Source: Nannobrachium achirus
Taxonomy: Eukaryota > Chordata > Actinopteri > Myctophiformes > Myctophidae
Direction: 5' to 3'
Assembly (NCBI GenBank): GCA_963921795.1
Contig: OY997642.1
Span: forward strand, 56,750,591 to 56,814,590
DNA: 64,000 bases
The position numbers and the translations under genes are program-made. The notes under the pieces are model-generated. The model did not search any database. It saw only the letters and a program-made list of their open reading frames with translations, and was not told the DNA's origin. Below are positions 66 through 63,439 of this stretch, in pieces (within the stretch, counting starts at the first letter, position 1; every line of letters starts with the position of its first letter).

Positions 66-270
66 TGATGTGTACACCGTCGCTGTTGGCCAGAAACCTT
101 GTGTCTCAAGCACAAACCTTGTGTACAAGCACACAACGCCTCGCACCGCGAGGCGTTGTGTGCTTGTAGATCGGCTGTTTTCACTAGTTTAAATCATTTT
201 TAAAATGATAAATTCAAAACGAACGGTTTTCGACATACAAGATTTTCACCCGACAACAACGAAAACTGTC
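66..270. mobile_element. Miniature inverted-repeat element with central hairpin (CGGGCAGAAACCT family)
   Basis: Begins near the variant GTTGGCCAGAAACCTTG and ends near AAGATTTTCACCCGACAAC, decayed inverted ends of a family seen also at 930-1135, 14725-14870, 22240-22520, 27570-27800, 32365-32632, 41108-41352 and 52235-52442. The centre (124-168) is a perfect 21-bp stem with loop ACC. Confidence 0.65.
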
Positions 271-2228: not shown

Positions 2229-24310
<22,082 letters not shown>

Positions 24311-24323
24311 CCCCGTGCACGCA

Positions 24324-24327
<4 letters not shown>

Positions 24328-36120: not shown

Positions 36121-36204
36121 CATTTTGAAAATGGCAAATCTACAAGCTCACAATGCGTTGCATCGCCACACATTGTGAGCTTGTAGATCTGCTATTTTCA
36201 AATG
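36121..36204. repeat. Dispersed hairpin repeat copy
   Basis: CATTTTGAAAATGGCAAATC pairs with GATCTGCTATTTTCAAATG. The inner stem is CACAATGCG / CACATTGTG-like. Confidence 0.75.
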
Positions 36205-43200: not shown

Positions 43201-46200
43201 GTCCACCAAAAGGCCCTTTTAGAAATGTCAGCCCCTGCCTCTCTTAACATTCTTTGCACGTCCCTGACCAACGCGGACCTGCACACAGTAAAGCGATACA
43301 AGCGACTGTCTAGAATAAACAGCTTCAAAGTGCGAATGCTTCGAATTATTCGATATTTTCGAATATTCGAATTTATTCGAATCAACGGTGGATTTTGAAG
43401 GGAATATTCGAATGCCATTTTTGGCAAATTTTGACAGGCCTAGTGTACAGTATGGGCGCTTTTCGACCGGCAAGGAACCGGTTCGGGTTCTTTCTCCCGC
43501 CTATGGGATGAACCAAAGGTGAGCTTTTCGCTGAGAACCGAGTTGGTTTCCGAACCGTAAAAGTTGGTTCAGAACGGGAACCACAAAATCCTTGGTTCCT
43601 CTGGTTCAATCATGGTTCAATCTGGTGGAAACGCAAGCCGGTTCGCAAGGACGAACCAAGGTTCCAAGAAAGTTGAATGGCACTGGTTCTTGAACCAAGG
43701 TTCTTTTGGTGGAAAAGAGCCCACTGTGTGTTCTTACAGTTCTGTGCGGGCGTACAATATGTGAGTGTACAGAGTGTTCTTACATGTAGTTCTACTGCTC
43801 TTAGATCAGTTCAGTGTGTGTACAGTGTATTCTTACATGTAGTTCTACTGCTCTTAGATCAGTTCAGTGTGTGTACAGGCAGCGTTGATTTCGACTAAAA
43901 CTATGATGAAAAATGTATGTCGACTGCATTTTTTTCACTGACGAAAACGAAATAAAAACGAAATAAAAACTAAGCTGTGATGGTTAAAACTAAGACTAAA
44001 TATATTGACAATTTCGTCAACAAAATAAAAACTTAGACTAAAACGTTAGGGAGGGACTAGTGGAGAAGAGAGTAATTTTATGTTTGGTTGCTCTCAGGTG
44101 TTGCGTGCTGAAAATAGATCTACAAGGCGCGTTGTGAGCTTGTAGATCTGCTATTTTCAGCACCCAACCAAGTGTAAAATCAAGGCCTGCCAAAACGCAT
44201 TTGTTGATTTAGTCACTAAAATCTTATGACATTTAGTCGACTAAAATTAGACTAAAACTAAAACTTTTCAGTTGACTAAATTATGACTAAAACTAAAATA
44301 CATTTTATTCAAAAGACTAGGACTAAAACTAAATCAAAATTTGCTGTCAAAAACAACACTGGTACAGAGTGTTCTTACATGTGGTTCTACTGCTCTTAGA
44401 TCAGTTCAGTGTGTGTACAGTGTATTCTTACATGTGGTTCTGCTGCTCTTGGATCCGTACATCCTGTTGTGCAGGAAGTCCATGGCGCTCTGCTGCTGGG
44501 AGGAGGACAGGGGCGGAGCCTTGGTCATGGCGGTCACCGTGTAGCTGCCCTTCACACTGGAGGGAAAACATGTCTGCAGGTCAAGCTCACGTAAAAGAAC
44601 AAGATCCAATGAAAAGCCATTATCGGCCATTTTATCTTGAAGGTTCGGTCTCAAAAGATCTGCCGTTGTCACGAGAAACTTTCTGCCTAAACTTTCTGTA
44701 CTAAACTAGTGCAGTATGTGCAGCCATCATTTTGGTCCCGTGTTTAGAGTTTGGAAGAGCTCGTAGAAAAACAGCATCTACAAGCTCGCATCGAGCTCGA
44801 GCTTGTAGATGTGCTACTTTTGAATTTGAACCGTGAAAGTAACAGTTTGACATAAAACGGTTTGTTTCCACTCGACAGAGACGATAGATGATTGTTTACA
44901 AACAAAGTCTCGACAGAGACAGGATAATCTATGCTGTCCGTACAGTTGCAATATTGGTGACTATCATCCTTTAATACAATCAGACATGAACGGGCTGTCA
45001 TTGGAGGCTATACTGTACGTACGTGCGGCTGTACTTCTGTTTGGTTGTCTTTGTGTCCTCATCCTCTTCTTCCGCCATGTCGCCGCCCTCATCTTCATCA
45101 TCCTCAGAGGAACCTCCCTCTTCACCTCTCTCCACGTCTTCAGCTGGGTGACAACAACAAACACAATGCTTTATAGAACTTCATTAACAAGATCTCTCTC
45201 TCACACACTACAGCATACATACATTATGAATAGTATAGGCATAGCGTGGCTGTCGTTGACGAAGAACAGATCTAACAAGCTTAACACGTCGCCTTACAAT
45301 GCGTTGCTAGCTTGTAGATCAGTTCTTTCGCAAACACCACCCTTGTGCAATAGTCTAGCATTAATTAAAGTTTTTGTTGTTATCAATTATGAAAGGATAG
45401 ACAAATGTATCACGAATAAAAATAAAAATGTGACAACAATAAGCAGGTAAATGTACAGCATTAATCAAAGTTAGGGGAAGGGTCTTCTTATTTACCTTTA
45501 TCTTTTGACAGCTCCCGTTTCCTATATGAATGACAGCAGATGAGAAGGAGAAGAATTTGTATTTTAATGATGGAGCTTGAGAAAGGTCTGGTGACCGAAA
45601 CGTTGCTACATTATTAATAAATTCTCTGAAACGGACAAGCGGCAGTGTGCGGGTCAGTCTGTCTTTGAGTCAGATCTCCTCCTAATGATGGAGAGAGACA
45701 TAAAGATCGATAGATCCTCTAGTGAACGAGGCAGTCAGACTGAACGTACTTTGAAGGCGGCGCGCCGATCTCCTCTAGGACTTCAGCGGGGAGCAGTCTG
45801 CGTTTCTGTAGAGACCAGAAGAGAACACGTTAGGAATGGGACAATAACATTTCATATCACATTAATTGTGACCAAAGAAATTGTGATTTACAATATTATC
45901 GCGATAATCAAAACATCCCCCAACATCCATTATCCTGGGGGCGGAGCATTTGCCACCAAAAAAATAACAGATCTACAGGAACAGCGCGTTGTGAGCTTGT
46001 AGATCTGCTATTTTTTTGCAAAGAGATTTGGTAGAGAGTGGGGGAAAAAAAGACTGTATCAAGTACATTATTTCCAAGCCTGTTTTACCAATTATAAAGG
46101 GTTTAAGTGGTACCGGATATGCAGCTCGGCAAATAAAAGCTGAATTGATCCCAGTGCATGACGATTTCATAACAATAATTACAATAATCGTATCGTGGAG

Positions 46201-47167
46201 ATTTCCTTTTTTTTTATCAGGACAAACGATAATAACGACCCATCCCTAGAACACATATGGATCAGTGCATCTCTCTCTCTCTAACACTGACACACAGTAC
46301 CACACACACACACACACACCAGCACACACACACACACACACACTCCATTACCTTCTGTTCTTGAAACAACTCGTGTTTCTTCCTTCTCTTTTCTTTCAGT
46401 TGTTCTTTTTCTCTGTCAACACAAACAATGACATGTTTTTGTTTCATTCCTTGGCATCAAAAACATCACATACTGTAACATAACAATGTTCTGTTACTAT
46501 GCTGCAAAACACGTTATATTACTAAGCTATATATTATGTTTATTGCATTGTGTCACCTGTTGCAGCATGCAGGGTGTCATCATTTATATAATATACTGTA
46601 TGTTATTGTAGGTAATATTGTATATTGTAACATAGTGACCTGTTTGTTGGAGGCTTCCAGAGCTTGTTTCATATATATTAATGTATATTAAAGTGTAAAT
46701 AACAAACAGTGACCTGTTAACAGCTTCCAGGGCTTGTCTCATGTATATTAATGTGTAAATAACAAACATAGTAAACCTGTTAACAGCTTCCAGAGCTAGT
46801 CTCATGTATATTAATGGGCAACAGTCCGCCATTCCGAAACACCGCTATTCCGAAGCAGGGTTAGGGTTAGGGTTAGGGGTAGGGTTAGGGGTAGGGTTAG
46901 GGTTAGGGTAAGGGTTAGGGTTAGGGTGTAAATAGTAAACATAGTAAACCTGTTCACAGCTTCCAGAGCTTGTCTCATGCTCTGCAGAGCCTTGGTCTTG
47001 GAGTCCTCAAACGTCACCTCGTCTGGAGCTCCGTCATCATCATCATCTTCATCGCTGGAGTCAAACATCAACATGTTGACAGCATCTGCCTTGTTTTGTT
47101 CCATTTCTGCTCTTAAAGATCCAGAAACTACACTCGTCTTCTTCTTCCCATGCTGTTTGGACGCCAT
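40211..47167 (-). CDS. nol7: Nucleolar protein 7 (seven coding exons, one-base frame conflict)
   Basis: NOL7 is a small basic/acidic nucleolar protein involved in ribosome biogenesis (family knowledge). Exons on the - strand: 47167-46950, 46412-46352, 45521-45496, 45143-45023, 44556-44432, 41012-40935 and 40284-40211, about 233 residues. Key matches: an acidic stretch then GAPDEVTFEDSKTKA, EKEQLKEKRRKKHELFQEQK, KRELSKDK, SSSQQQSAMDFLHNRMYG, NELLSLGIKRG...AMEFINKDWG, and a basic C-terminus HKANAEKFKKRW, all collinear with human NOL7 as recalled. Every junction keeps phase except exon 2 to exon 3, where the only visible acceptor leaves one extra base. The neighbourhood with RANBP9 agrees with the human order on 6p. 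Confidence 0.88.
40560..40703. mobile_element. Short inverted-repeat element (GGCCCATTCC)
   Basis: GGCCCATTCCCACTGGGCCA-type left end; ATCTGTTAGGAATGGGCC right end. Inner AGATAAAAA repeats. Confidence 0.6.
40935..41012 (-). CDS. nol7: nol7 exon 6
   Basis: Encodes NELLSLGIKRGESNVTAMEF then INKDWG, matching human NKFLSLANKR...VQFLNNAWG. Acceptor attacag, donor G|gtgaga. Confidence 0.88.
41108..41352. mobile_element. Element of the CGGGCAGAAACCT family in nol7
   Basis: ATCGTCTCAGTCGGCTGG AAACCTCTTAT and ATAAGAGGTTTCTGCCCGAC are the inverted ends. The hairpin at 41184-41235 has a very short loop. Confidence 0.75.
41592..42118. mobile_element. Tc1-like deletion derivative in nol7 intron 5
   Basis: TA-flanked. 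Ends CAGTCGTGGCTAAAAGTATT / ACTTTAGCCAAGACTG with the inner GCACCCTTGCA / TGCAAGGGTGC. No transposase remains. The insertion site matches a related uninterrupted repeat at 39640-39670. Confidence 0.85.
42375..43442. mobile_element. hAT element of 1068 bases with perfect target duplication
   Basis: TAGGGGTGTGAAAGAATATT ... TTGACAGGCCTA flanked by GTGTACAG on both sides. Inner repeats of TTCGAATATTCG mark both ends. A degenerate hairpin lies at 42583-42650. Confidence 0.93.
43453..43722. mobile_element. Inverted-repeat element with GGTTC motifs
   Basis: GGGCGCTTTTCGACCGGCAA and TTTTGGTGGAAAAGAGCCC ends. The interior is full of GGTTC/GAACC. Confidence 0.6.
43879..44365. mobile_element. Element rich in ACTAAAACTA, with hairpin
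   Basis: CAGCGTTGATTTCGACTAAA ... AAAACAACACTG ends. Related, more decayed copies are at 11290-11440 and 26310-26610. The hairpin at 44100-44168 has the extended stem GTGCTGAAAATAG / CTATTTTCAGCAC. Confidence 0.65.
44432..44556 (-). CDS. nol7: nol7 exon 5
   Basis: Encodes VKGSYTVTAMTKAPPLSSSQ then QQSAMDFLHNRMYGSKSSRTT, matching human AAQAFIHNSLYGPGTNRTT. Acceptor ccctccag, donor T|gtaaga. Confidence 0.88.
45023..45143 (-). CDS. nol7: nol7 exon 4, acidic
   Basis: Encodes AEDVERGEEGGSSEDDEDEG then DMAEEEDEDTK and QKYSRT. Acceptor cacccag, donor AC|gtacgt. The length of 121 bases keeps phase with exon 5. Confidence 0.8.
45496..45521 (-). CDS. nol7: nol7 exon 3, microexon with phase conflict
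   Basis: 26 bases encoding KRELSKDK between catatag and gtaaat. A pyrimidine-rich run lies upstream, so the acceptor looks real. Reading from phase 0 meets TAA, while the frame set by exon 4 needs one base fewer. This is an indel, an assembly error or an unseen splice form. Confidence 0.7.
45831..46248. mobile_element. hAT element in nol7 intron 2
   Basis: TAGGAATGGGACAATAAC ... CGACCCATCCCTA. The flanks GAACACGT / GAACACAT match at 7 of 8. The hairpin is at 45955-46018. Confidence 0.8.
46352..46412 (-). CDS. nol7: nol7 exon 2
   Basis: 61 bases encoding R-EKEQLKEKRRKKHELFQEQK, matching human LLKEKRKRREELF. Acceptor ttgacag, donor AAG|gtaatg, phase 0 end. Confidence 0.85.
46637..46816. repeat. 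Tandem copies of the nol7 exon 1 3' end with splice donor
   Basis: Three intronic copies of CAGCTTCCAGAGCTTGTCTC with adjoining GTAAAC/CTGTTAACAG precede the real exon end at 46950. Unit length is about 75 bases. On the - strand most copies read QALEAVNR followed by GT. Confidence 0.85.
46817..46926. repeat. Telomere-like (TTAGGG)n insertion
   Basis: About 45 bases of GGCAACAGTCCGCCATTCC-type sequence followed by about 65 bases of TTAGGG/TAGGGG repeats. It interrupts ATTAATG|TGTAAATA, which is intact in neighbouring copies. Confidence 0.88.
46950..47167 (-). CDS. nol7: nol7 exon 1 (start codon, acidic region)
   Basis: Starts at ATG 47167 and encodes MASKQHGKKKTSVVSGSLRA through QALEAVN plus two bases, ending CAG|gtttac. 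It contains an Asp/Glu run (SSDEDDDDDGAPDE). Its 3' end is tandemly copied in the intron (46637-46816). Confidence 0.9.
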
Positions 47168-48585: not shown

Positions 48586-51500
48586 GTAAACACATTCATA
48601 ATAACTCTGCACTAATAATAATAACACAAGAAGAACAGCCACTGTGAGCCACACACCATGTCAGAGGTAAAGAATGATGATGATGATAATCTATCTATAA
48701 ATGCGACAAATCTCTGTCTGTTTGTTTGTTTGTTTGTAATCCGCGTATCTCGAGAACCGTTCGTCCCACCGGCTTCAGATTCGGCACGCGCGTTCCCCGC
48801 CGCCGCGCGGAGTGCAGTGCCAGGCCTCGACCCGACCCGACTCGCGGTTTTCCGAAACCGGCGCGAAACGTTCGGAATCTCCTTATGCGGAGCTGATTGT
48901 TGACATCAGGCTGTTCCGGAGGAAATCGGCGCAAGCGCTGAGTCATTGTGACATCACTTCATAAAAGGCTCTGACATCACGTACGCCACATGAGTCAACA
49001 CAAAATCTCTGTGAATGTGTATGTATGTATGTAATCCGCGTATCTCGAGAACCCTTCTTCCCACCGGCACGCGCGTTCTCCAGATATGGGCATAAAGTCT
49101 GACATCAGAGTTTTCCGCAACCGGTACTGTGTGTGCAGAGATCTTCATATATGGGCATAAGTGGACAAAGACAAACAGATGGTCAAAACGGGTCCTATGA
49201 CAACAGGTATATTGGGGTTTGCATTAAAGGGTGGGGCATTCATGGGGTTTGCATTAAAGGGTGGGGCATTCATTCCCTATTTCAAATTCGGCACGTGCGT
49301 TCCCCACCGCAGCAGGTAGTGCAGTGCTCGGCCTCAACCCGACCCGACCCACGATTGTTTGAAAAAGCGACAGAAATCTCATATATGGGCATAAAATGGA
49401 CGCAGATAAACAGATATCTCCATATATGGCATATATGGGCATACAATGGATGCAGAATCACAAAGATCTCCATATACGGGCATAAAAGGGACACAGACAG
49501 ACAGATACAGAGATCTCCATATATGGGCATAAAATGGATGCAGATAGACAGATATCTCCATATATGGGCATATATGGGCATAAAATGGACCCAGAACTAT
49601 AACTGCAGTGATCTCCATATATGGACATAAAATGGACACCGACAGACAGATACAGATATCTCCATATATGGGCAAAAATGGACACAGGCAGACAAATGGT
49701 CAAAACGGGTCCTATGAAAACAGGTATAATGGGGTTTGCATTAAAGGGCGGGGCATTCATTCCCTATTTACATTGTTCCGAGTTGGCCAGGTCGCCGACT
49801 AGACGCTGGGCCGCCCGAAGGGCGGCCCAGCTTCTAGTAATTATAATTAGATGACACTAATAATAGTCTAATAATATTATTATTATTATTATTACTAAAC
49901 ACACCCTGCCAATAGGCAAACACATATTAATAGGCTAATTATAACAATAGGCCTAATAATAACAACGATGATAATAGTCTAACAACAACAATACATTACT
50001 TTAAAGCTGCTGTAAGTTATGTATTTATTTATTTTGGCATTAAAATTAGTGCTAAAGCTCTATTCTGATAGCAATCCTTGATTGATTTATTGTTTGAATA
50101 CTTTATTTGAAGTTTCCATAGGAAAAGCACAGTAGCCTACAGTACTATAGAGATACTAGATCTACTAATAGGATTTAAACCCAAGAAAGCACAATGGCTT
50201 GTTTACATTGTTGGGGTACTCAATTCATAGAGATTACTAGCCTATATAAAGTGTTTTTTCAGGGGTCTCTCCAGATACAGGATAGACAAAGTGGAACTGG
50301 AAATGATGATAACATCATTTATAATGAGCAGACAACATTAGAACCAGAACACAAGCTTATAAATGATCTTTGAGGGGGTTCTCTCTCCTCATTGGTTGAC
50401 ATTTGTAACCCACCTTGTACTAAAAAGCTGGTATTCACCTGGTAGACAGAGAGACGACTCTGTTACTGAACACACTATAGCAGTGGGTCTGGACCCATTT
50501 GTGGGGCACAGACCATTTTTTATGGGTCAAGAGTGAATGAATACCTCTTTATTATTTGTTTCCTACATTTTGTTCTTAATTATCATTTCATTTTTCATGG
50601 TATTTTGAAGAAATTCCATAAATTAGGAAAAAAACATGTTTAAGAAGGAGTGAAAATAGCAGGTCTACAAGCTCAGCACGAAGGGGCACGTTATGAGCGT
50701 GTCGGTCTGCTGTTTTCACTAGGTTTTTTTCATCAATTTCTTTTTTGGCGCTTGAGCTAAAAGGTTTTCGAACCACTGCTCTAATAGAGCTTTATGTTGA
50801 AAGAAAGAAATCAAGTAATCTGAGAGTTGCAGCTAGTGTTGTTCCATCTGTGTTTAAATGAACATTCGATATGTTCTAAATGCTGGGTCTTATTGCCCCC
50901 ACTGGCTGATTCTACAAATGTCTTCTAAATCCTAACAGTTTTTTGAAAAACATATGTTTCTATATCGGTGGTGCGCAAACATTTTCATGTCAAGGACCCC
51001 CAGAATTAGGTCCCATCCTAATTTACAGTACACTTTAAGACAGAATAAGACATAATAAAGCCATAATAAGAAATAATGTGTTGGTAATTAGAACTAATAT
51101 GTTTTATTAGACAGAAACAAAGACAGAATAGCAGAAAGACCGAAATACATTATCTGGTGCCGGGACCTGCTGACCGGCAGTTCGACCAGTTGTGCCTCAT
51201 CGCCCGCGCTAGGACCGGCATCACTGGTAACTGCCGCGGCAGCCACCACCGCACGGACCAGCAGTTTACCGCGACGGGACCTGCCGGTCCGTGCGGCGGC
51301 CGCCGGTCCTACTGCCGGGACTGCTGGTCGAACTGCCAGTCCTATCGCCGGCGATGCAGTGCGACTGCCGTTCGAACTGCCAGTCGTGCGGCGGTACCTG
51401 CCACGGCAGTTCCACGGCAGGTGCCGGTGCCAGAGGAATGTATCCGCTCTTTCTGCTATTCTGTCTTTGTTTCTGTCTAATAAAACATATTAGTTCTAAT

Positions 51501-54500
51501 TACCAACACATTATTTCTTATTATGGCTTTATTATGTCTTATTCTGTCTTAAAGTGTACTGTAAAATAGGACGGGATCCAGAATTATATGTATTTGACCA
51601 CGGACACCCATCTCAAAATATTTTGTTCCAGAGACCCAGAGAAAGAAAGATTTAATATACAAATGTTCTCTTTAAAATATATATCTATATATCTTTCATA
51701 AATAGCAGATCTCACAAGCTCATAGCGCTATGAGCTTGTATATCTGCTAATTTTGAATAGCTAAAGTATAAAATAATGGTTAAAGTAGTTACAAGTGACA
51801 CAGATGCTTTCTAAAGGTTTAAATGGGTTTAAAAGTTGCTGCCAACAACATTAGCATTTGTTGTTCAGTAGTCATGAGTCCATTACCAAAGGTTAATCCA
51901 CTGTGACGGCTTGCTCTGAGCACATGATGGCTCTACTCTACTAGACACAGTATGATGACTTCATCCCTTTGTAATCGATCATTTCTGTCCCGGATAACCT
52001 GCTCACCTTAAATAAAATATAAACTCATTTGTGAGTATGAGATGTCATAACATGTATGTGTGACGGAGAGAGTCGCAGCCCCAGCCTTGAAGCCTCAAAA
52101 GTCTAGTATCTCCCCCAGATCAAAGAGATGTCTCTTTGGTCTAGTGGTTAAGATATTGGACTTTCGCGTGGGAGACCCGGGTACGAAGCCGGGTGGGGAG
52201 GTCCGGATCACCTCCGTTACATATGTATCATGATTGTTGTTTTCAGGCAGAAACCACTTATCTTAATATTTTTGTACTACAGAGGGTCACACAAAAGCGT
52301 TTCAAGTAGCAGATCCACAAGCTCAAAATGTGGGCACGAAAGCATGCATTTTGAGCTTGTAGATCTGTTCCTTTTGAGTTTGAATCCTGAAAAGTAACAG
52401 TTTTGTACACATGAGGTTTCCACCCTACACAGAGACGATATGTGCCAATATCACACGTTATTGTCACATCAAAGGTTTAAGGTAAAAAAGGGAAAACAAT
52501 CCAAGTTATAAACATAGTAAGCATAAACAGTGGCAGAGGTTACACATGAGTTGCAGCAACAAGGTGAAGTTAAAATTAGTGTTGATAAGTGAGTCAGCAT
52601 AATCGTGGCTCATGACTCTGATCAGTTTACATTGCAGATCATGAGACTGTCATAGCTACAAGTGATTGGCTGAATTCATAAGAATAATTAATTCATAATA
52701 ATGTGGTGGGTAATTTGGAACACAGTCAAATTCTCACAGAACATTCAAAAAAAGTAAAGTCTTAACATTCATCTCCATGGGGAAAAAAAAATAAATGGTC
52801 AATCTTTATAGTGGCACTAGTAAACCACGTCCACTTGCTATGCCCTGGCTTATAGGGCTCAAGTGGAACCCCCTCACTTTGACTGGTCCCACTTTGACTG
52901 GTCTAAACATCCATCCATCCCATCTCAACTCTTGTCTTCTGGTTGCAGGTCCTTCGAGTACATCTACCTGTACCAGACTGGGGTGATGTTCCAGATCGAC
53001 CAGAAGACCAAGGAGTGTTCTAAGCTGGCCCTGACGGAGGCCTGGGACCCCTTCGACATCCCAGACAACTCCACCTTCGAGGACCAGTACTTCATCGGCG
53101 GACCCGGGGACATGATCCAGGTGCAGGAGTGGTCTGACAGGAAACCAGCTCGTAAACGTAAGTGTCATCACGATCCATGGTCCAATCTTGACCACTGTAA
53201 CTCCCTCCTTGTTGGCTTCCCAGCATCCTCGCTTAAAGGACAATTCCAGACTAAACTAGAAAGATGATATCATCTGTGGGACAGAAGTACTGCTTGTGTG
53301 GGACAATGTGGGATTATGCCTTAATGTCATATTCGACTATAGGCCTAATACTGCATATTGATATTTCTCATGTTATTTTAACAGGCCTAAAAACATATCT
53401 TTATTCCATTTCGCTTTTGTTTAGATCAACGATGCTGCAGCGGTTCCTTCTGAACATTAGCCTAGTTCCAGACCCTGAATCGCTAGCCACACCCCTTTAA
53501 ATTTTTTGTTTTGGCGATTCAGGGGTCTAGAAGTGCTCTCATTGAAGAGTCCTCCCTCGGTTGAAAATCCGTACGGGGAATCAGCGTCGTGAATCAGTGT
53601 CTTGTGATCAGCGTGGGTGGGGGTTTCCCAGAACTCATGTGTGTTTCCAAGTACACCAGCGCCGCCGCCGTACCGTACCGTGCATCGCGTTGCGATAAAA
53701 TGCGGTAAATTGCGGTAAAATGCGATCGTATCGATCTCGCTATGAAACACCAGTAGCAGGCATGTTATGTTGTGTTTGATTACTAGTTCGTAGTGCTCCT
53801 ATTCTGACTGTTTCTTTGGTTAGCAAGTAGCACTAGCAAGCAACAGGCTAGCCACTAGCCAGCCACACATAACAACCATGATAACAGCACTATGTCATGT
53901 GTTGGTCGGTGAACCAATCGCTGAAGACTGCCTCTTTTTGGCAACGCCCATCCCTGCAATCGCCTTGGGGGAAAGCACTTTCAGACTGAATAATGAAGTG
54001 AAACGAAATGTCAATTCAGGCTGAGTGTCAGGCTATCTGAACATTGTCTCTCAACAAAATAAATGTGTCCATGTTCAATTAAAATAAAAGCATATCCTAC
54101 CCTATAATGTATTCACGTGCCGCTAGAGCAGTGCTATGTCCAGTGTGGTGGTCCAGTCTAGCTTGCTGTGAGCTCACATTAAGAGCTTCAGGAACAATCA
54201 GCACACCTATCAACACCTGCACATTGATTTATTACTGGAGCCTGCATGCCAGTCACAATGTGGGACAGTGTTTCAATGTGTGGGACGTCTGAAAAGTCAT
54301 GGTAATTTGGGATTGTCCCACACAAAGGGGGACATCTGGTCTCCCTATATTTGGCAAAACTGCCAATCAAAGTGACTGTACTGGCCAATCACAGCACGTC
54401 TTTTCCCGGGACTTGGCAAAACACAAAACAGCATGGATGTGTTTGTAATGACAACTAGTAACAGATTGATAAAAAAAAACAAGAAAATACAAAACTTTTG

Positions 54501-57500: not shown

Positions 57501-60500
57501 CCCTTCCTCCGTGTCATCACCGACACCAATAAAGCCCAAAAAGAAGTGGTGGATGCTGTTTTGGGTAAACCTGATAAAGGGAAAGAACAGTCAGGTTACT
57601 CAGGACGCTCTTCCCGTAATAGGGAGAGATATCAGGGACCCCCCCGACAGGGCGGGAAACCCCATCGTTCTCCTAGAGCTCCGTCTTCCTCCTCGGGCAC
57701 GAGCAGAAACAGAAGTCAGAGCAACCAGGGCTCCCAGCACCAGGAGATGCGCCCACCAGCTCGCCCTTCATACAGTGCAGCAGTGAGGGGGCGTGGGAGA
57801 GGGTCGAGAAAATGACACTTTGAGAAAGAGGGCCTTCTCACCCTCGGCGCACGGAGACAGGGTCATGGACGGCTCTCCAGCGCGCAAGCACAGTGCACTT
57901 TTGATCCTGCCACCCAGGGTGGAGGAATCCAATGTAAATGTGAATTTTGTTACTGTGCCAAATGTTTTCTCCCCAGTAAAGAATGTGTCTGCGAAACAAG
58001 GTCTCTTCTTTCACAATGCACACACAATGGAGAATCCCCAGTGGGGACATCCATATATAAAATATGCATGCCCAGTACCACAATCACAAACACAAACAGC
58101 CTTCAAGGAAACCCCCTTAAGGGGCATTTCCAATATAAAAGGTTTAATTGTTCCACAGCCTCAATCCTCCCTTCCGACACGAGAGGGCGCCAAAGCGCCA
58201 GTCAAGGTAAGAAGGTGGCAGAGAGGTCTTTCTTGTTTAGCTGTCCCAGCCAGAGCTGCGACAGCAGTATTAAACAGGGTTTTAGACAGGACGTGTTTAC
58301 AAGAATGCGTTCCTTTTTACACTCCTCCTCTGCCTCCTGTCCCACCGTGCAACAAAGTGTTGTCGCCGGTGATAAAGGCATTAAACGTAAGGCCCTCGCG
58401 TCACAGCAAGACGGTGTCACGCTCAGTAGTAAGTCACGTGACTCAGTCTCGAGTCCCTTTGACTTCCGCGTTACCGGTGACGTCAGAGTCGTGTCCGGGG
58501 ATGCACATACCGTGCATTCCTATCAATCACATTCCGTTAGGTCTGACGTCAGCTCCCATTCAGAATCCTTTGTCAAGGCATTTAACTCAATGGAAAGCAT
58601 GCAAGCCGTGTCCCTGGGTGCTTCGCACCGTGAGGCAGGGATACAGGCTACAATTCTCAACCCAGCCTCCCTTGTCAGACAGAGTGATATTCACGCATGC
58701 AAAGGGGCAGGCCGCTTTGATTCTGAGGGAGGAGATTCACTCTTTATTGGGGAAAGGAGCGATCAGGGAAATTTCCACAGATCAGCTCGGTCTGGGGTTT
58801 TATTCTCATTATTTCGTTGTGCCAAAGAAAGGGGGGGGGCTGAGGCCCATTCTGGACCTAAAAGCCCTCAACAATTTTCTGGTAAAGTACAGTTTCAAAA
58901 TGTTGACGAACGTAGCGCTATTGCGCTCGATCAGAATCAACGATTATTGGACGTCCCTCGATTTGAAGGACGCGTACCAGCATGTGGGAATTTACCCCCC
59001 ACACAGAAAATTCCTGAGGTTCGGTTTCGAGGGGAAAGTGTACGAATACACTGTTCTCCCGTTCGGCCTCTCTCTGTCTCCCCGCGTGTTTGTCAAAGTG
59101 ACACAAGCGGCTATAGCTCCCCTGCGGCAGCAGGGAATCCGACTTGCGACGTACCTGGACGATTGGTTAATAAGCGCAAGTTCAAGAGAGGAGGTGACAC
59201 GTCTCACCAATGTGGTGATGTCGCAGTTAACCTCTCTGGGGTTCAACATAAACTTCAAAAAGAGTATGTTAACACCAGCTCAGCAGACCACCTTTTTGGG
59301 GATCTCGCTGGACTCAATAAATATGACGGCTCGACTCTCACAGGAGCGATTAGTCAAGATCGTGGCCTGCGCGAAATCTTTTCGCGTGGGCAGAGTGGTC
59401 ACGTACAAGCGCTGCATGATTATGTCAGGGCTGATGGCCTCAACTATCCATCTACTCAGGCTGGGCAGGCTGTATATGAGGCCTTTTCAAAAGTGGATGT
59501 TGGCACTCAAAATCCACTCGACACAAGGTCGCCGCAAGGTCAAGGTGTCCCCAGGGTGTGTGTACACACTGAGACCGTGGGTGGACGTGACTCTTCTGTC
59601 CCAGGGGGTCAGTATGGGCGTGGTGGTGTCACGGAAAGTGATCACAACGGACGCCAGCCTCAGTGGTTGGGGCGCAACGCACGAGGGCCGTTCGGTGAGG
59701 GGAGTTTGGGACTCCGCTCTACAGAAGCGGCACATCAATTTCCTGGAATTAAAGGCAGTGTTTCTGGCGTTGAAACATTTTTTGCCTTTTGTGGAAGGGT
59801 GTCACGTGTTGATCAGGACGGACAACACGACGACCATGTGCTATATCAACAAGCAGGGGGGCCTCTCCTCCCCGGCTCTCAATCAGCTGGCGCGGGATCT
59901 GACGCTGTGGTGGGAACCACGTTTGGCGTCGTTCAAGGCGTCGCACATTCCGGGGCTTCTGAACAGCGGAGCAGATCTGCTGTCCAGGGGGGAGCCCCTT
60001 TATGCAAATTGGTCCCTCCACCCGGGAGTGGTGAGACAGATTTGGAGCAGGTTCGGTCAGCCTCAAGTCGACTTGTTCGCGTCAGCAGAGAACGCGAAGT
60101 GTACACTTTTCTTCTCTGCGACGGGGCCAGCCCCACTGGGGCTGGATGCTCTGGCTCACGACTGGCCGAGGGAACTGCTGTACGCGTTTCCTCCGTTGGA
60201 ACTGATCCCCCAGACTTTGGAGAGGGTCAGGCGGTTCGGCCTCAAACTATTGTTGGTGGCTCCGGGGTGGGGCGTGTGGAGGTCGGAGATATCTCCCCTC
60301 CTTTACGGCAACCCGTGGCCTCTGCCGCCAATCAGAGATCTGCTACGGCAGGCAGGGCAGGAGATCTTCCATCCCGACCCGGCGAAGCTAGACCTTCAGG
60401 TTTGGCCCGTGAAGGGGAGTCTTTGAGCGCTTTGGGTCTGACACCAGGGGCGGTTCAGACTATTCAAAGTGCTAGGGCTTCGTCCACGCGGTCGGCTTAT

Positions 60501-63439
60501 GATAAGAGGTGGAGGATCTTTGAAGACTGGTGTGCGGAGCGTACGTCACCGGTGGTGGCGTTTGAGGCTCCGGTCCAGCTTGTTGTGAATTTCCTTCAGG
60601 AAAAGTTAGAAAGTGGTCTTGCCTTTTCTACCATTAAAGGTTACTTGGCGGCGCTGTCAGCGTGCCATGTGGGCTTTGAGGGTAAGACGGTGGGTAGGCA
60701 CCGTCTGGTGGCTCGGTTTTTAGCGGGTGTGCACCAGCTTAAACCGGTTACTAGGTCCCTTTTCCCATCGTGGGATTTGGGTGTGGTGTTGGACGGGCTG
60801 TGCCGTCCACCGTTTGAGCCTCTGGAGGCGGCGAGCTTAAAGCTTTTGAGTTTTAAGACTAGTCTTTTGTTGGCTTTGTCTACAGCCAAAAGAGTCAGTG
60901 ATCTACATGCGTTATCGGTGGACCCGGTGTGCATGAGATTCTGTGAGGATGGCAAGAAGGTTCTGCTAAAACCCCATTTGGCGTTTGTCCCAAAGAACCG
61001 TGTGATTATACATGAGCCAACCGAGTTGGTGGCTTTTCATCCTCCTCCGTTTTCTTCGGAGGAGGATAGGCGTCTACATTGTCTTTGTCCGGTAAGATCC
61101 TTGAGGATTTACTGTGAGAAGACGAGGGCTATTAGAGCGTCAAACCAACTGTTTGTCACTTTTAAAAGTGGTCCTAGACGGAAAGCGGTGGCTAAAGCTT
61201 CACTTTCAAGGTGGATTGTGCAGGCCATAAAGATGGCCTACACTTGTGCTAAAGTCCCGGTTCCTGAGGGCCTAAGGGCTCATGACACTAGGGGAATGTC
61301 GACCTCCTGGGCTCTAGCCAGGGGTGTCTCGATCCAAGAGATCTGTTCGGCGGCTAACTGGTCGACTCCGTCGACTTTTGTGGTTTTTTACCATTTGGAC
61401 GTGGCTCCATCTTCATTGGCGCATTCGGTCCTGGGTGTTGCCGCCTCCTCTAGTTAAAGACTTTTTCCCCCTTTTTTATAGCTGAGACCAAGTCCCTTTG
61501 CTCTCGGTAAAAGGGGGAGACCCTGTTTCCTTATAAAACGGCTGCTAGTGGGCCTATTAGTGAATAGGCGGGCTCCAGCCTGTCAGGGTTTTATGAGGCG
61601 GACCTGGTCGGCCTATTAGTTCATGAGGCGGATTTCGGTCTGTCAGGGTCTTTCTACTTTCTTCCGCTCTCGAGTCCGGTGGGCTCGGGGCTCCGTGGGG
61701 GAGGGGCCACGCCGGGGGTGTGGTCTCCTGTCAGGCGGAGCGGGCGGATTTTGAGGGTGTGCGCTTCCGGGGGTTTATGTGACCCAAGAGGAGTGCATTT
61801 CGAGTAAATGACAGAAAACGAAAGGTTTCGTACGAAACCATGGTTTTCTTAGTTTAGGAGAAATGCACTCCTCAAACGCCCCTTCGCGCGCATGTTGCGT
61901 GCAGAGGAACGGTGTTGTTAAGAGGAAGTACACATGCCAGTCTCGCGCCTTATGCCCACGGGTGGGGCGGGGCGTTTGACTGGCATACCCTCCGACTGTG
62001 TCATTCGGGAGCATATGTGTAGCTCTGTATCGCACGCTAGGAGGCGCGATAACCCAAGAGGAGTGCATTTCTCCTAAACTAAGAAAACCATGGTTTCGTA
62101 CGAAACCTTTCGTTGGTGTTCCTTGTCAGGGAAGTGCAATTATCATTGGCATCTCTTCATTTATAAAGCCCTGGTTGGAAAACTTCCACCATACATCTCT
62201 TCCATGCTACGTGGAAACCTAGTCACATTCAAACTCACTCCAGCGACTGGCTGGTCCTTCAGGTCCCCTTTGCTAAATCGGGAACTAACTGGGAAAGACT
62301 GCTTTTAGCATTAAGTGCACCTGATTCCTGGAATTCCTACCATCTGTTGGTCATTTTAGGAGTACTTAATAACCGTGCATTACCTGTTTTTAACTTGTTT
62401 TAACTGATTGTTGTCAACATTGTTTTTTCTCTCTGTTTATGGTTTATGTGTGTAATCTCTGCATCATTGTAAATGAGGGTCTCCCTCAACTGATCTCTCC
62501 CGAGAATTTAACCCATTTAGAACGGGTACACATTATTGTGTATCATTATTTTATGCTTTAACTATTGAAAAATAGCAGATATACAAGCTCATCTGCTATT
62601 TTTGAAAAATCGTGAAAATTAGAATTTTGACCCGATTCTATTTGTCTTTTGAATCCTTCTAAGATTTTTTGAAAAACCTATGTTTCTATGTCAGCAATTT
62701 GGCTATCCATCGTCAAAGAAAAGGTCCTTTTCACTTAACTGGAGCTCAGTTAGTCTGTTCTTGAGAGACTACTGTGTCAGTGGTTCTCAAACCTTTTCAT
62801 GTGAAGGACCCCAAAATAATATGTATTTGGCCACAGACCTGCATCTCAAAATATTTAGTTCCAGGGACCACCCAGAAGCAAAATTTTAGTTACAAACGTT
62901 CGCTTTGAAAATACATATATTCAGAGATTTGCACACATTTTCACGACTTTTTCAAAAATAGCAGATCTACAAGCTCGCAGCACGGCACTCGGTGCCACAC
63001 TGTGAGCTTGTATATCTGCTGTTTTTCAATAGCTAAAGCAGTCAATAATTCTAGGCCTATAAATGGGTTAAATAAATGTTGAATAAATGAATGAATGAGA
63101 TTGTGGAATAGTTGTCTGGCTGCGTGAGACTAGGCAGATTCATTGTTTACCTGGTATCCTAGTTTCTTTGAGACACTTATCTTTTCCACCGCCACCATCA
63201 AACGGTGTCTCTCTCTCTCTGTGTGTCTCCACGGAGCAGACGAGACGTGGGTGGGGGTCTACACGCTGCAGGACTGCTACCCCGTGCAGGAGACCTACGT
63301 CAGGAACACCAGCGTCACCACCTCCACCCGCTTCTTCGACATCCAGCTGGGGATCAGCGACCCGGACGTCTTCACCCCGCCCTCCACCTGCCAGACGGCG
63401 CGCCTCAACAGCATGCCCCAGACCCCCACCCACTGCTGA
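48350..63439 (+). CDS. epdr1: Ependymin-related protein 1 (three coding exons)
   Basis: EPDR1 is a secreted/lysosomal glycoprotein of the ependymin family with a lipid-binding fold (family knowledge). Exons 48350-48585, 52949-53157 and 63240-63439 join in phase to give 214 residues against about 224 in human. Residues 1-25 look like a signal peptide (VVSSLLCLFSAACVL). Family landmarks: PLQWEGRSVQYDHGTGRNTR, GVMFQIDQKTKECSKL, WDPFDIPDNSTFEDQY, QVQEWSDRKPAR, ETWVGVYTLQDCYPVQETYV, STRFFDIQLGISDPDVFTPP. Cysteines in GPC, TPC, KEC, DCY and STC are family-typical, and DNST and RNTS are N-glycosylation sequons. The start ATG was chosen for the signal peptide. The gene is divergent from nol7 (about 1.2 kb between starts); intron 2 carries the DIRS element. 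Confidence 0.93.
48690..49837. mobile_element. Non-autonomous Helitron with internal minisatellite
   Basis: Starts A|TCTATCTATAAATGCGAC and has the CGTATCTCGAGAACCG block common near Helitron 5' ends. The 3' end is a perfect 12-bp stem (GCTGGGCCGCCC / GGGCGGCCCAGC, loop GAA, 49805-49831), then TT and CTAG followed by T. There are no terminal inverted repeats and no target duplication, as expected for rolling-circle elements. No Rep or helicase is coded. Confidence 0.85.
49376..49690. repeat. Minisatellite inside the Helitron
   Basis: Six or more units around CTCCATATATGGGCATAAAA then TGGACGCAGATAGACAGATA, of variable length. The block ATTGGGGTTTGCATTAAAGG flanks the array on both sides. Confidence 0.85.
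49838..50480. other. epdr1 intron 1 stretch without a gene
   Basis: Contains short ATT/ATA repeats (49865-49895). Nothing else recognised. Confidence 0.5.
50481..50778. mobile_element. hAT-like element with hairpin
   Basis: CAGTGGGTCTGGACCC ... GTTTTCGAACCACTG ends. The hairpin at 50650-50717 has flanks GTGAAAATAGC / GCTGTTTTCAC. No convincing target duplication. Confidence 0.65.
51009..51578. mobile_element. Fold-back element with arms of about 150 bases and a GC-rich core
   Basis: Nearly identical inverted arms (51009-51160 / 51430-51578) with a perfect 8-base target duplication CAGAATTA. It is inserted in a GGACCCCCAGAATTATATG repeat. The core is very GC-rich with recurring CGGCAGT and GTTCGAACTGCC motifs. 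Confidence 0.9.
51695..51755. repeat. Dispersed hairpin repeat copy
   Basis: AAATAGCAGATCTCACAAGC pairs with GAGCTTGTATATCTGCTAAT. The loop is very short (CATAGCGCTATG is itself palindromic). Confidence 0.75.
52131..52200 (+). pseudogene. tRNA-like sequence (tRNA pseudogene or SINE head)
   Basis: TTGGTCTAGTGGTTAAGAT resembles an A box as in tRNA-Glu, and GGTACGAAGCC is a degraded B box. The anticodon stem does not pair, so a working tRNA is unlikely. Confidence 0.5.
52235..52442. mobile_element. Element of the CGGGCAGAAACCT family
   Basis: TTCAGGCAGAAACCACTTAT ... ATGAGGTTTCCACCCTACAC ends. The hairpin at 52308-52372 has a longer AAAATG(T/C)-type inner stem. Confidence 0.65.
52949..53157 (+). 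CDS. epdr1: epdr1 exon 2
   Basis: Encodes RSFEYIYLYQTGVMFQIDQK through EWSDRKPARK plus one base. Acceptor gttgcag, donor C|gtaagt. Confidence 0.94.
53165..53245 (+). pseudogene. LINE reverse-transcriptase fragment
   Basis: Encodes NLDHCNSLLVGFPASSLK, matching the LDYCNSLLxGLP motif of L2/CR1-type LINE RTs (family knowledge). Only this block is recognisable. Confidence 0.6.
53246..54785. other. epdr1 intron 2 stretch without a gene
   Basis: A short inverted repeat at 53460-53535 (CCAGACCCTGAATCGC / GCGATTCAGGGGTCTAG). Otherwise unremarkable. Confidence 0.45.
54786..55098. mobile_element. Inverted-repeat element rich in GGGGCC
   Basis: CAGGGCTGTATTAACC and GGTTAATCCGTCCATG ends, with inner CCAGGGGCCC / GGGCCCT-type repeats at both sides. 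Confidence 0.55.
55175..55424 (+). pseudogene. LINE 3' coding fragment, left of the DIRS insertion
   Basis: Frames through 55190-55370 read AHKLWNKLYCSQKC and KTHLFRLHLFF, like the C-terminal end of L2-type LINE polyproteins. The DIRS element starts within or next to it. Confidence 0.5.
55443..55613. repeat. DIRS left inverted terminal repeat
   Basis: Matches the complement of 61890-62071, with one 8-base difference (TGTTGTTA is present only at the right). Everything between GAAATGCACTCCTCTTGGGT and GTGTACTTCCTCTT is identical as far as I compared by eye. Confidence 0.93.
55833..57815 (+). CDS. DIRS ORF1, Gag-like protein (660 aa)
   Basis: Putative structural protein of the DIRS element. 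The N-terminus has a zinc-binding-like cluster C15, C20, C33, C36 and H41 (RRCGDPECSRF ... CLGCLELQHAW). Then comes a Pro/Ala/Ser-rich region, a Glu/Asp run (about residues 240-270), a conserved-looking middle domain (TNQFFCAQFKPTECPF; RLPPEAYAEWDAMLQLAI), and an Arg/Gly/Ser-rich basic tail suited to nucleic-acid binding (SYSAAVRGRGRGSRK). The ATG at 55833 follows the left terminal repeat by about 220 bases and is the first long frame. The stop at 57813-57815 overlaps the opening of the RT frame. The domain assignment is by position and composition; DIRS Gag proteins are poorly conserved. Confidence 0.85.
   Translation: MSSEGLFSPPLPRRCGDPECSRFIAAEDPHSICLGCLELQHAWQGFYFPNSCVFCATMDAAVLHQRLLVVMNMDAARPKQSHVARGAQMEHGAQIPATPGQRSGPVSSTAARFVQAAPSVCEPIRSSFSPMYTISTTAHSGGTGMFGSTPRFSFTPGPGLTSTGPLQASAALQASLQGPLQAGPLSPVAAEAATSGTPHPTNPFLMTPAVTAPPSFPPLLTSQQNVPRKVPRGSDEFGTSEEEEDAMEGEEEEDEEEEEEDGLVQEETSEDIVMLSPRHGGTPRTSPQAPPIAPAKKAAVDKEKVGATAESTPQELDLLAVVELAVAKMGLTMPVEPRPASSTEIKFAGKREVQTPVPRSQKLPATPGLKEALHSTWKEHREPGKMALSTSLADEDKFGVGGLPPVDVATNQFFCAQFKPTECPFTQEPVPKFKNKDENKVSNMVKNVYKAAGLSVKSLNVVGLMNGAMAEMLLQNKDRLPPEAYAEWDAMLQLAIVSNVHAIQWAGRGMDVAVSMERFRWLQKVPFQGDEPKASERREELRGLDTAPNSLFEGALPFLRVITDTNKAQKEVVDAVLGKPDKGKEQSGYSGRSSRNRERYQGPPRQGGKPHRSPRAPSSSSGTSRNRSQSNQGSQHQEMRPPARPSYSAAVRGRGRGSRK
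57793..60426 (+). CDS. DIRS ORF2, reverse transcriptase / RNase H / methyltransferase-like
   Basis: The RT domain has the palm motif YLDD at residues 454-457 (counted from 57793), with VPKKGGGLRPILDLKALN and SLDLKDAYQHV upstream. RNase H follows with D620 (TTDAS), E652 (FLELKAV), D677 (RTDNTT) and D728 (GADLLSRG), all four acidic positions. The C-terminus (VDLFASAENAKC, GLDALAHDWP, LLYAFPPLELIPQ) matches the Dam-like methyltransferase domain known in DIRS elements. The frame opens at 57787 in +1 relation to Gag. The first ATG is 57865 (residue 25), so either initiation there or a frameshift from Gag is possible. Nearly all of it is overlapped by ORF3. Confidence 0.93.
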   Translation: MGEGRENDTLRKRAFSPSAHGDRVMDGSPARKHSALLILPPRVEESNVNVNFVTVPNVFSPVKNVSAKQGLFFHNAHTMENPQWGHPYIKYACPVPQSQTQTAFKETPLRGISNIKGLIVPQPQSSLPTREGAKAPVKVRRWQRGLSCLAVPARAATAVLNRVLDRTCLQECVPFYTPPLPPVPPCNKVLSPVIKALNVRPSRHSKTVSRSVVSHVTQSRVPLTSALPVTSESCPGMHIPCIPINHIPLGLTSAPIQNPLSRHLTQWKACKPCPWVLRTVRQGYRLQFSTQPPLSDRVIFTHAKGQAALILREEIHSLLGKGAIREISTDQLGLGFYSHYFVVPKKGGGLRPILDLKALNNFLVKYSFKMLTNVALLRSIRINDYWTSLDLKDAYQHVGIYPPHRKFLRFGFEGKVYEYTVLPFGLSLSPRVFVKVTQAAIAPLRQQGIRLATYLDDWLISASSREEVTRLTNVVMSQLTSLGFNINFKKSMLTPAQQTTFLGISLDSINMTARLSQERLVKIVACAKSFRVGRVVTYKRCMIMSGLMASTIHLLRLGRLYMRPFQKWMLALKIHSTQGRRKVKVSPGCVYTLRPWVDVTLLSQGVSMGVVVSRKVITTDASLSGWGATHEGRSVRGVWDSALQKRHINFLELKAVFLALKHFLPFVEGCHVLIRTDNTTTMCYINKQGGLSSPALNQLARDLTLWWEPRLASFKASHIPGLLNSGADLLSRGEPLYANWSLHPGVVRQIWSRFGQPQVDLFASAENAKCTLFFSATGPAPLGLDALAHDWPRELLYAFPPLELIPQTLERVRRFGLKLLLVAPGWGVWRSEISPLLYGNPWPLPPIRDLLRQAGQEIFHPDPAKLDLQVWPVKGSL
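58041..61457 (+). CDS. DIRS ORF3, tyrosine recombinase with long overlapping N-terminal frame
   Basis: The recombinase proper lies in the last 340 residues, after the RT stop at 60426. It has an N-terminal SAM-like half (STRSAYDKRWRIFEDWC; STIKGYLAALSACHVGF) and a catalytic half with R951 (STAKRVSDL), H1081-x-x-R1084 (AHDTRGMSTSWA) and Y1117 (FVVFYHLDV), numbered from 58041. The recombinase integrates the circular DNA intermediate. The upstream 795 codons run in a different frame through the RT gene without a stop and show no domain I recognise. The true start could be any ATG or a splice/frameshift junction. The frame equals that of Gag. Confidence 0.88.
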   Translation: MGTSIYKICMPSTTITNTNSLQGNPLKGHFQYKRFNCSTASILPSDTRGRQSASQGKKVAERSFLFSCPSQSCDSSIKQGFRQDVFTRMRSFLHSSSASCPTVQQSVVAGDKGIKRKALASQQDGVTLSSKSRDSVSSPFDFRVTGDVRVVSGDAHTVHSYQSHSVRSDVSSHSESFVKAFNSMESMQAVSLGASHREAGIQATILNPASLVRQSDIHACKGAGRFDSEGGDSLFIGERSDQGNFHRSARSGVLFSLFRCAKERGGAEAHSGPKSPQQFSGKVQFQNVDERSAIALDQNQRLLDVPRFEGRVPACGNLPPTQKIPEVRFRGESVRIHCSPVRPLSVSPRVCQSDTSGYSSPAAAGNPTCDVPGRLVNKRKFKRGGDTSHQCGDVAVNLSGVQHKLQKEYVNTSSADHLFGDLAGLNKYDGSTLTGAISQDRGLREIFSRGQSGHVQALHDYVRADGLNYPSTQAGQAVYEAFSKVDVGTQNPLDTRSPQGQGVPRVCVHTETVGGRDSSVPGGQYGRGGVTESDHNGRQPQWLGRNARGPFGEGSLGLRSTEAAHQFPGIKGSVSGVETFFAFCGRVSRVDQDGQHDDHVLYQQAGGPLLPGSQSAGAGSDAVVGTTFGVVQGVAHSGASEQRSRSAVQGGAPLCKLVPPPGSGETDLEQVRSASSRLVRVSREREVYTFLLCDGASPTGAGCSGSRLAEGTAVRVSSVGTDPPDFGEGQAVRPQTIVGGSGVGRVEVGDISPPLRQPVASAANQRSATAGRAGDLPSRPGEARPSGLAREGESLSALGLTPGAVQTIQSARASSTRSAYDKRWRIFEDWCAERTSPVVAFEAPVQLVVNFLQEKLESGLAFSTIKGYLAALSACHVGFEGKTVGRHRLVARFLAGVHQLKPVTRSLFPSWDLGVVLDGLCRPPFEPLEAASLKLLSFKTSLLLALSTAKRVSDLHALSVDPVCMRFCEDGKKVLLKPHLAFVPKNRVIIHEPTELVAFHPPPFSSEEDRRLHCLCPVRSLRIYCEKTRAIRASNQLFVTFKSGPRRKAVAKASLSRWIVQAIKMAYTCAKVPVPEGLRAHDTRGMSTSWALARGVSIQEICSAANWSTPSTFVVFYHLDVAPSSLAHSVLGVAASSS
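61782..61873. repeat. DIRS internal complementary region
   Basis: The first part (61782-61819) is the exact complement of the left end 55425-55462. The second (61820-61873) is the exact complement of the right end 62058-62111. This is the template layout used to join the ends in the DIRS replication model. Confidence 0.95.
61890..62071. repeat. DIRS right inverted terminal repeat
   Basis: Complement of 55443-55613. It is followed by a unique 40-base outer end (to about 62113) that is represented only in the internal complementary region. Confidence 0.93.
62114..62400 (+). pseudogene. LINE 3' coding fragment, right of the DIRS insertion
   Basis: Encodes HWHLFIYKALVGKLPPYISS then PLLNRELTGKDCF, the FIYKALLGKLPPYL...RTELGK block near the C-terminus of L1/L2-like fish LINEs (recalled, not searched). 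Confidence 0.6.
62508..63071. mobile_element. TTAA-flanked composite element with two hairpins
   Basis: TTAACCCATTTAGAACGGGT ... TAAATGGGTTAA. Close relative of 21506-22088. The first hairpin (62568-62610) has lost its loop and inner stem; the second (62945-63030) is complete apart from a few changes. Confidence 0.78.
63240..63439 (+). CDS. epdr1: epdr1 exon 3 (C-terminus)
   Basis: Encodes HETWVGVYTLQDCYPVQETY through QTPTHC and TGA. Acceptor gagcag after a CT/GT-rich run. Confidence 0.94.

Follow-up and report, generated by a model that had tools for sequence, protein, structure and literature searches.

A palindromic core carried in the interior of non-autonomous hAT and TTAA transposon families of Nannobrachium achirus

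In the genome of Nannobrachium achirus, one short hairpin recurs inside non-autonomous transposon families of different superfamilies, hAT elements with 8-bp target duplications and TTAA elements among them. It was followed up from a 64,000-nucleotide stretch of contig OY997642.1 (positions 56,750,591 to 56,814,590), referred to here as the window. The reading that we favor, with confidence about evenly balanced, is that the hairpin core is a palindromic passenger in many such families, acquired once per family at or before founding and then hitchhiking on the host transposase.

The arm AGATCTACAAGCTCAC, allowing up to 3 mismatches, matches the window 56 times against 0.41 expected, and none of 100 shuffles reached 56, which rules out a chance origin of the arm matches. 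Scanned with the 71-bp core and with half of it, the 64-kb window gave 43 core intervals, several of them partial, single-armed, or decayed, so that the recurrence reported in the initial annotation is borne out. The 17 hairpins that it had located individually all have arms as described (17/17); an arm is damaged at 12051-12123, 41184-41235, and 44100-44168. One interval, 15573-15595, is probably not a true core, because its host repeat has copies without a core; it was the sole flag raised by a search for coreless hosts over 145 core intervals. Genome-wide (1.6585 Gb in 564 contigs), the exact 23-mer GCAGATCTACAAGCTCACAACGC occurs 24,026 times (11,926 + 12,100), and its reversed control 0 times. 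The window holds 4 exact copies of GCAGATCTACAAGCTCACAACGC against about 0.93 expected per 64 kb and is therefore richer than the genome average. Scaling by 43 intervals per 4 exact copies suggests on the order of 250,000 core intervals in the genome, a figure that, with n = 4, indicates order of magnitude only. Core patterns were found 0 times in the viral contigs and 0 times in the genome contigs searched.

What is the conserved unit? It is a near-perfect palindrome of about 73 to 86 bp with a sharp outer edge. Across 60 half-arms aligned on GATC, conservation extends from -10 (AAAATAGCAG) to about +20 (ACAACGCGTC), and at the outer edge the information drops from 0.81 to 0.34 to 0.08 bits (n = 60 half-arms). 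These half-arms were selected by likeness to GATCTACAAGCTCAC, so that conservation within GATCTACAAGCTCAC is partly ascertainment; the outer edge is unaffected. An alignment of 15 hand-picked cores paired 93% of cells, versus 31 to 44% in slid controls, which do not correct fully for relatedness. Folded as DNA, window positions 30176-30249 reach -42 kcal/mol (z -16), and five cores folded as single-stranded DNA gave z values of -9.8 to -16.1. A structured RNA represented in Rfam was ruled out, as an Rfam scan of the window at the gathering threshold gave no match at any core. The cores and hosts of the window are listed below, with the basis of each call; none is assigned a strand.

124-181: core palindrome of family h (h3), left arm truncated (arm check, core scan, flank clustering)
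388-454: core palindrome (core scan)
638-708: core palindrome of family h, CGGGCAGAAACCT ends (core scan; family by reading)
1567-1959: hAT MITE of family b (TAGGGATGGGACGAT) (duplication ATGTGCTG/ATGTGCTC, 1 mismatch)
1776-1846: core palindrome within family b (arm check, core scan)
2438-2808: hAT MITE of family a (TAGGGCTGTCAC), core partly deleted at 2631-2670 (8-bp duplication GCTCACAG)
8486-8863: hAT MITE of family a (8-bp duplication GCGGCATC)
8599-8652: core palindrome within family a (arm check, core scan)
11845-12382: element with CAGGGTTCCCAC ends (family c), no confirmed 8-bp duplication (ends, duplication test)
12057-12117: core palindrome within family c, damaged arm (arm check, core scan)
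18361-18429: core palindrome of family g (core scan, flank clustering)
20801-20845: decayed core of family b (core scan, flank clustering)
21506-22088: TTAA-type element of family g, one core near either end (ends, core scan)
21567-21622: core palindrome, first of two in the family g element (arm check, core scan)
21974-22044: core palindrome, second of two in the family g element (arm check, core scan)
22388-22444: decayed core of family h (core scan, flank clustering)
27675-27711: core of family h (h3), one arm lost (core scan, flank clustering)
29270-29318: decayed core of family g (core scan, flank clustering)
30041-30479: element with family k ends (GGGGTCTTCAAC) (by ends)
30132-30323: nested TTAA element T (family f), TTAACCACTTGAACCC ends, within k (by ends)
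30178-30248: core palindrome at the center of T (arm check, core scan)
30983-31634: family b element of 652 bp, half core at 31459-31487 (duplication CTGGAAAC)
32442-32521: core palindrome of family h (h3), extra central bases (arm check, core scan)
33818-33877: core palindrome with 7-bp inverted flanks TCATACT/AGTATGA (arm check, flank reading)
36128-36198: core palindrome of family F8, right end TTAACCACTTTAGCCC with 1 mismatch (core scan, ends)
37736-38241: second family c element, one-armed core at 37952-37984 (ends, core scan)
41205-41230: half core of family h (core scan, flank clustering)
43880-44361: family e element (CAGCGTTGATTTCGAC / CAGTGTTGTTTTTGAC), no confirmed duplication (by ends)
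44107-44159: core with internal deletion, within family e (arm check, reading)
45831-46248: hAT MITE of family b (duplication GAACACGT/GAACACAT)
45961-46014: core palindrome within family b, damaged arm (arm check, core scan)
50650-50717: diverged core in a CAGTGG-ended element (d1) (arm check; element by reading)
52304-52374: core palindrome of family h (arm check, core scan)
62508-63071: second two-core family g element, cores at 62569-62591 and 62955-63025 (ends, core scan)

The window has other contents as well. A palindrome of about 566 bp at 51011-51576 (73% over 610 columns when aligned with its reverse complement) contains no core interval. Long open frames of a retroelement span 57793-61457; they include a reverse transcriptase domain (PF00078), and an RNase H-like match there stays below the cut-off. 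Our guess, from reading, is that the retroelement is of DIRS type. An ependymin domain exon (PF00811, E 6e-21) lies at 52863-53264 and, like the repeat types, suggests a teleost, and the window's only Rfam match is to a tRNA at 25671-25737, just above the gathering score.

Hosts were grouped by clustering of their flanks. Target duplications were scored in elements with both ends in the sequence, core-bearing or not, at no more than 1 mismatch. Duplications of 8 bp were found in 20 of 24 elements of family a (TAGGGCTGTCAC), 7 of 11 of family b (TAGGGATGGGACGAT), 11 of 17 of family k (CAGGGGTCTTCAAC), and 2 of 4 of family e (CAGTGTTG), and all four families thus show the 8-bp target duplication of non-autonomous hAT elements. 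At the assumed ends of families c and n the count was 0 of 2 in each, and in the single true copy of family q (L075) the candidate 8-bp duplicates differ by 2 mismatches. TTAA flanks the inverted ends on both sides in 23 of 28 elements of family f (element T, TTAACCACTTGAACCC; at most 1 mismatch). These f elements sit mostly at one identical nested site within k and therefore do not represent independent insertions. F8 and g also have TTAA-type ends. The initial annotation was therefore right to name both hAT elements with 8-base duplications and TTAA elements as hosts.

A census of exact arms took in 90 of the 100 listed places of the exact 23-mer, all within the first 8.2 Mb of contig C1; being restricted to exact 23-mers, it favors well-kept copies. 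A second arm, accepted at up to 4 of 13 mismatches, was present at 73 of the 90 loci and absent at 17, one palindrome having been read twice (as L026 and L027). At 80 of the 90, at least one flank belongs to a reference family, and the commonest hosts on both sides are f (30), a (12), F8 (7), and b (6). Neither flank does so at the other 10, where reading nonetheless identified repeats in L075 and L099 (relatives of T), L096 and L023 (family o), L046 (b), and L044 (m). Window copies L001 and L063 were left out of later pooled counts. The L044 locus (G000:C1:3276640-3277640) is a palindrome of about 700 bp, judged by eye, with a core in either arm near its center. As for the source of transposase, 150 PF05699 hits were scored for hAT transposases. 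A search of 36 transposase 3' stretches turned up no autonomous partner for family a; 8 of the stretches have a-like ends and are not its partner. The k-like matches near transposases (L131, L135, and L149) and an n-like one (L121) resemble neighboring MITE copies, less surely so for L135 and L149.

Are these hosts truly unrelated to one another? Flank consensuses, those of family o not included, were compared in anchored alignments against a null maximum; the o flanks of L096 and L023 matched no reference family at E 1e-3. Only three pairs align strongly: F0 with F19 (families f and b), F5 with F7 (the two sides of h), and F11 with F15 (g). The first of these extends over about 90 positions and scores 52, where the null reaches at most 16; family b therefore contains a relative of T in decayed form. 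Weaker pairs are F8-F15 (22 versus 12), F5-F13 (26 versus 18), F0-F20 (18 versus 16), and F8-F11 (30 versus 26). The likeness of h and a seen in F5-F13 is weak, and it could mean more shared descent than is allowed for here. Element T, with the core at its center, is nested inside k, and a relative of T lies in the hAT-like host q (L075); by reading, T ends were not found beside the core in families a, e, h, and o. The earlier statement that the ends of the hosts share nothing thus holds for some of them, is less certain for h and a, and fails for k, b, and q, which have a nested TTAA element around the core in common. Its companion, that the core sits in unrelated hosts, stands insofar as hAT and TTAA hosts both carry it, but part of the diversity is nesting, seen in k and q and, decayed, in b. 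Descent of all hosts from a single ancestral element was ruled out by the mostly unrelated flanks and the different superfamilies; with 8-bp hAT hosts and TTAA hosts both present, one ancestral element does not explain everything.

Several loci are rearranged at or near the core. L041 is a chimera joined at the core, of e type on its left and of o type on its right. Flank F6 pairs with F14 in family c and with F20 in L026 and L003, and F14 occurs also in n. L033 and L046 are half elements broken at the hairpin center. At L131 and L157 (G000:C3:56023450-56025050), a k-type element has its right end directly beside the core, and the rest of that half is missing. At L057:221-860, a k element is inserted, with the 8-bp duplication CTTTAGAG, into an older TTAA element (TTAACCACTTCAACGCC ... 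TTTAAGTGGTTAA) that may itself hold a decayed core.

The core sequences themselves speak to when each family obtained its copy. From 312 half-arms, 93 complete palindromes were assembled, of which 88 are distinct (5 identical ones were dropped). With 70 of the 88 assigned to a host family and 18 left out, and with some assignments that look wrong (L062 and L014), the mean core distance is 0.164 within families and 0.211 between them, and 0 of 500 label shuffles gave a value as low. The cores cluster by host, and each family therefore looks founded with its core. Some pairs of cores from different hosts differ at just 2 to 3 of 68 positions; the spread between families is therefore not much older than the families. 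The interior is more conserved between families than the ends are, as the half-arm profile, the mostly unrelated flanks, and the between-family core distance of 0.211 indicate. In 9 of 15 hand-picked cores the arms mismatch one base outside GATC, and the A/C states at this site next to GATC recur in a, b, f, h, F8, and n. A mismatch found across families argues for inheritance of the palindrome with both arms and against its reconstruction from a single arm in every host.

The palindrome runs about 5 nucleotides past the common core, in letters that are specific to the family and yet complementary across the core. At offsets 1 to 6, flank complementarity sums to 3.11, a value that 0 of 1,000 re-pairings reached (70 of 88 pairs, 18 contexts); at offsets 7 to 15 it is near chance, and 28 of 1,000 re-pairings reach the sum. 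On our reading, these paired flanks are an outer stretch of the hairpin in which paired changes have made the families diverge, or else they reflect quasi-palindrome correction via template switching; a third possible reading is that palindromic targets were inserted into. The flanks read are inverted, not direct, and contain no direct repeat or target duplication of constant length around the core. On these grounds it was ruled out that the core inserts precisely and makes a constant target duplication.

Does the core jump by itself? Empty sites were sought with host flanks minus the core as queries, and the best 40 copies per family were scored, a depth at which rare or old empty copies could be missed. 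Copies were then read as sequence in family a (10), family e (11), and family k (2, L158 and L160), with 0 read in family o. No certain empty site was found among the best 40 copies of each of families a, e, k, and o. Of the family a loci, L063 is the window copy and L068 has one flank, leaving 8 informative. L060, L061, L064, and L067 retain pieces of both arms, and L059, L062, L065, and L066 retain a remnant on one side, with differing breakpoints; L059 keeps ATAGTG alone, on one side. Core letters survive in 8 of the 11 family e loci (L110-L120) and are gone from L110, L112, and L115, again with differing breakpoints. L110 and L112 lack the adjoining host flank as well, and in L115 GTTGC is joined to AGCACAC with zero core letters. 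In family k, 1 of the 40 scored copies spans the query, namely L158, in which the right-hand part of T survives; T and the core are both present in L160. In family o, the table gaps place both flanks 56 to 80 nucleotides apart in 36 of the best 40 copies, while 1 of 40 spans with 42 extra nucleotides and 3 of 40 match one flank only. As judged from their sequences, the copies of a, e, and k that were read without a full core look like deletion derivatives, although L059 and L115 might, formally, be empty sites. The initial proposal of an independently spreading unit accordingly fared poorly, given deletion-like coreless copies in a, e, and k, o flanks a core length apart, and no constant target duplication.

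On the favored reading, then, the core would not jump by itself, and each family would multiply it with its own transposase after a single acquisition of the complete palindrome, both arms included, no later than the founding of the family. How might so many families have come by it? For k, b, and q, the route would be ordinary nested insertion of a TTAA MITE with the core at its center. For a, e, o, and h, the likeliest route may be filler capture by template switching during break repair, at the birth of an internally deleted MITE. A hairpin so common in the genome would be a frequent repair template. Filler capture is favored because every copy seen has the hairpin in its interior and the search gave no certain ancestor lacking the core; as neither a founding event nor a certain empty site was seen, we infer the capture. 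The complementary flanks of about 5 nucleotides are not predicted by simple filler capture.

A different history, which we regard as rather unlikely, would make the core no more than the center of a single old superfamily of TTAA MITEs (T together with f, F8, g, and an older relative in L057). T would have inserted repeatedly into hAT elements, its flanks later being lost in a, c, e, h, and o so that the hairpin alone remained. T does surround the core in k and q, and a decayed version of it does so in b; F8 and g have their TTAA-type ends and flanks that are weakly alike (F8-F15). The k end that directly abuts the core in L131/L157 means that loss of T flank up to the hairpin does occur. Against this, a, e, h, and o have no T ends beside the core, by reading, and the base of the hairpin has no excess of deletion endpoints. 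Thirty k/f elements were picked and 29 aligned (L022 was skipped for its short alignment), and they contain 27 deletions of at least 10 bp, with 2 endpoints at the hairpin base (2.5 expected), 8 inside (7.1), and 44 outside (44.4). L157, the case that prompted the idea, counts as no base deletion in this comparison, its missing half being outside the local alignment. Trimming to one edge in many families would thus be a coincidence, and hairpin-base deletions found no support as the route that left the core beside host ends.

Might the hairpin instead have been favored because it helps transposition or amplification, by bringing the ends together or through replication restart, so that the families acquiring it won? 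We consider this improbable. It would suit a hairpin found in at least 8 host families plus family o, and the same idea was raised, for their own interior, by the authors who described coral CMITEs (PMC2872659). Family o (L096, L041, and L023; left flank TTTCTGCGCCTGG) has a right flank 94 to 100% identical in 39 of the best 40 copies, which on sequence comparison makes it look recently active. The arms also co-vary. The 88 palindromes contain 138 both-arm changes versus 63.7 in shuffles (maximum 86), in shuffles that do not correct for relatedness, and 15 hand-picked cores from several families contain 27 doubly changed cells versus 11.6, with relatedness not fully corrected. That lack of correction weighs against the explanation, as does the finding that in 75 of the 88 palindromes the two arms differ from each other by more than the left arm differs from the nearest other left arm; the arms are therefore not kept alike copy by copy. 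Within families, moreover, the non-ascertained arm diverges roughly as the flanks do (less in a), at 0.06 versus 0.15 to 0.16 in a, 0.13 to 0.16 versus 0.13 to 0.25 in f, 0.14 versus 0.17 to 0.23 in b, and 0.08 versus 0.08 to 0.25 in e (hand-picked copies: 7, 18, 4, and 3, respectively), and so offers no strong indication that selection acted once the copies had amplified. There are also copies that have lost the core and yet have exact duplications (L059 and L062). A bolder version, in which the hairpin is a universal amplification module whichever transposase is used (hAT or piggyBac type), recruited independently by many families and driving much of the MITE burst, strikes us as quite a long shot.

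Finally, the sharp edges, the host-specific complementary flanks 1 to 5 nucleotides outside them, and apparent solo copies with inverted flanks (L014, GGGACA/TGTCCC; L032; window 33818) would fit a tiny mobile element entering the centers of short palindromes or MITEs, by some transposase or hairpin-mediated integration, but this is quite improbable with no consistent target duplication, no certain empty/filled pair in a, e, k, and o, cores that cluster by host, and few solo copies (10 of 90 loci, 6 of them repeats on reading; L032, L047, and L073 count as solo sites).

How does the passenger core compare with known systems? The hosts are of familiar kinds, being hAT MITEs and TTAA (piggyBac-like) MITEs that are short and have terminal inverted repeats with 8-bp or TTAA duplications; we know of no ordinary MITE families that share an interior across superfamilies. 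Foldback elements have long inverted arms that fold into a hairpin, and these arms are the ends of the element. The core resembles them in its long, hairpin-forming inverted arms and differs in that its hairpin lies inside elements whose ends are those of the hosts. Angel of zebrafish is said to be one family whose inverted repeat is the element itself (Izsvak et al., 1999), and the model reportedly put forward for it involves replication restart. Here, one hairpin is common to many families, and it is set apart from Angel by description, not by sequence. The likenesses are that both occur in fish in high copy number, and that their long inverted repeats form a stable stem-loop with compensatory changes between arms (PMC3636048).

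The closest precedent is found in corals. The CMITEs of Acropora are MITE families with different terminal repeats and an interior of about 75 bases that, from one family to another, is better conserved than the ends (PLoS One, 2010; PMC2872659). The interior is described there as of unknown origin, tandem arrays are reported, and the families, about 100 bp long with TTAA duplications and piggyBac-like ends, are estimated at about 1,600 copies in A. millepora; acquisition of host sequence and a role in transposition were both weighed for the interior (PMC2872659). Families with different ends and a common conserved interior are the point of likeness, and CMITEs are a close precedent for what the initial annotation took to be without a described counterpart known to it. 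Tandem arrays are another parallel, L014:16-590 being an array of a 52-bp unit with one core arm, some units shortened. In contrast to the CMITEs, which are characterized by TTAA duplications and CCYT ends in all families, the core here crosses hAT and TTAA hosts, the former with 8-bp duplications, and it is a near-perfect palindrome whose exact arms number in the tens of thousands. The CMITE paper nowhere uses the word stem "palindrom" (PMC2872659). What is new here is one interior that crosses transposase superfamilies (hAT and TTAA), and its palindromic form. Searches of open-licence papers with exact core strings and related concepts found no description of this element; 15-mers matched 0 papers, and 13- to 14-mers matched 2, both on subjects unrelated by title.

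One practical consequence is that a repeat library whose clusters are based on interiors can lump together families that are unrelated. What gives rise to a MITE family, and why a few of these families reach such huge numbers, is an open question. An interior common to families of different transposase superfamilies is a natural marker of founding events, many of them comparable within one genome, and such a marker lets one ask whether the hairpin is a frequent repair template, a transposition aid, or both.
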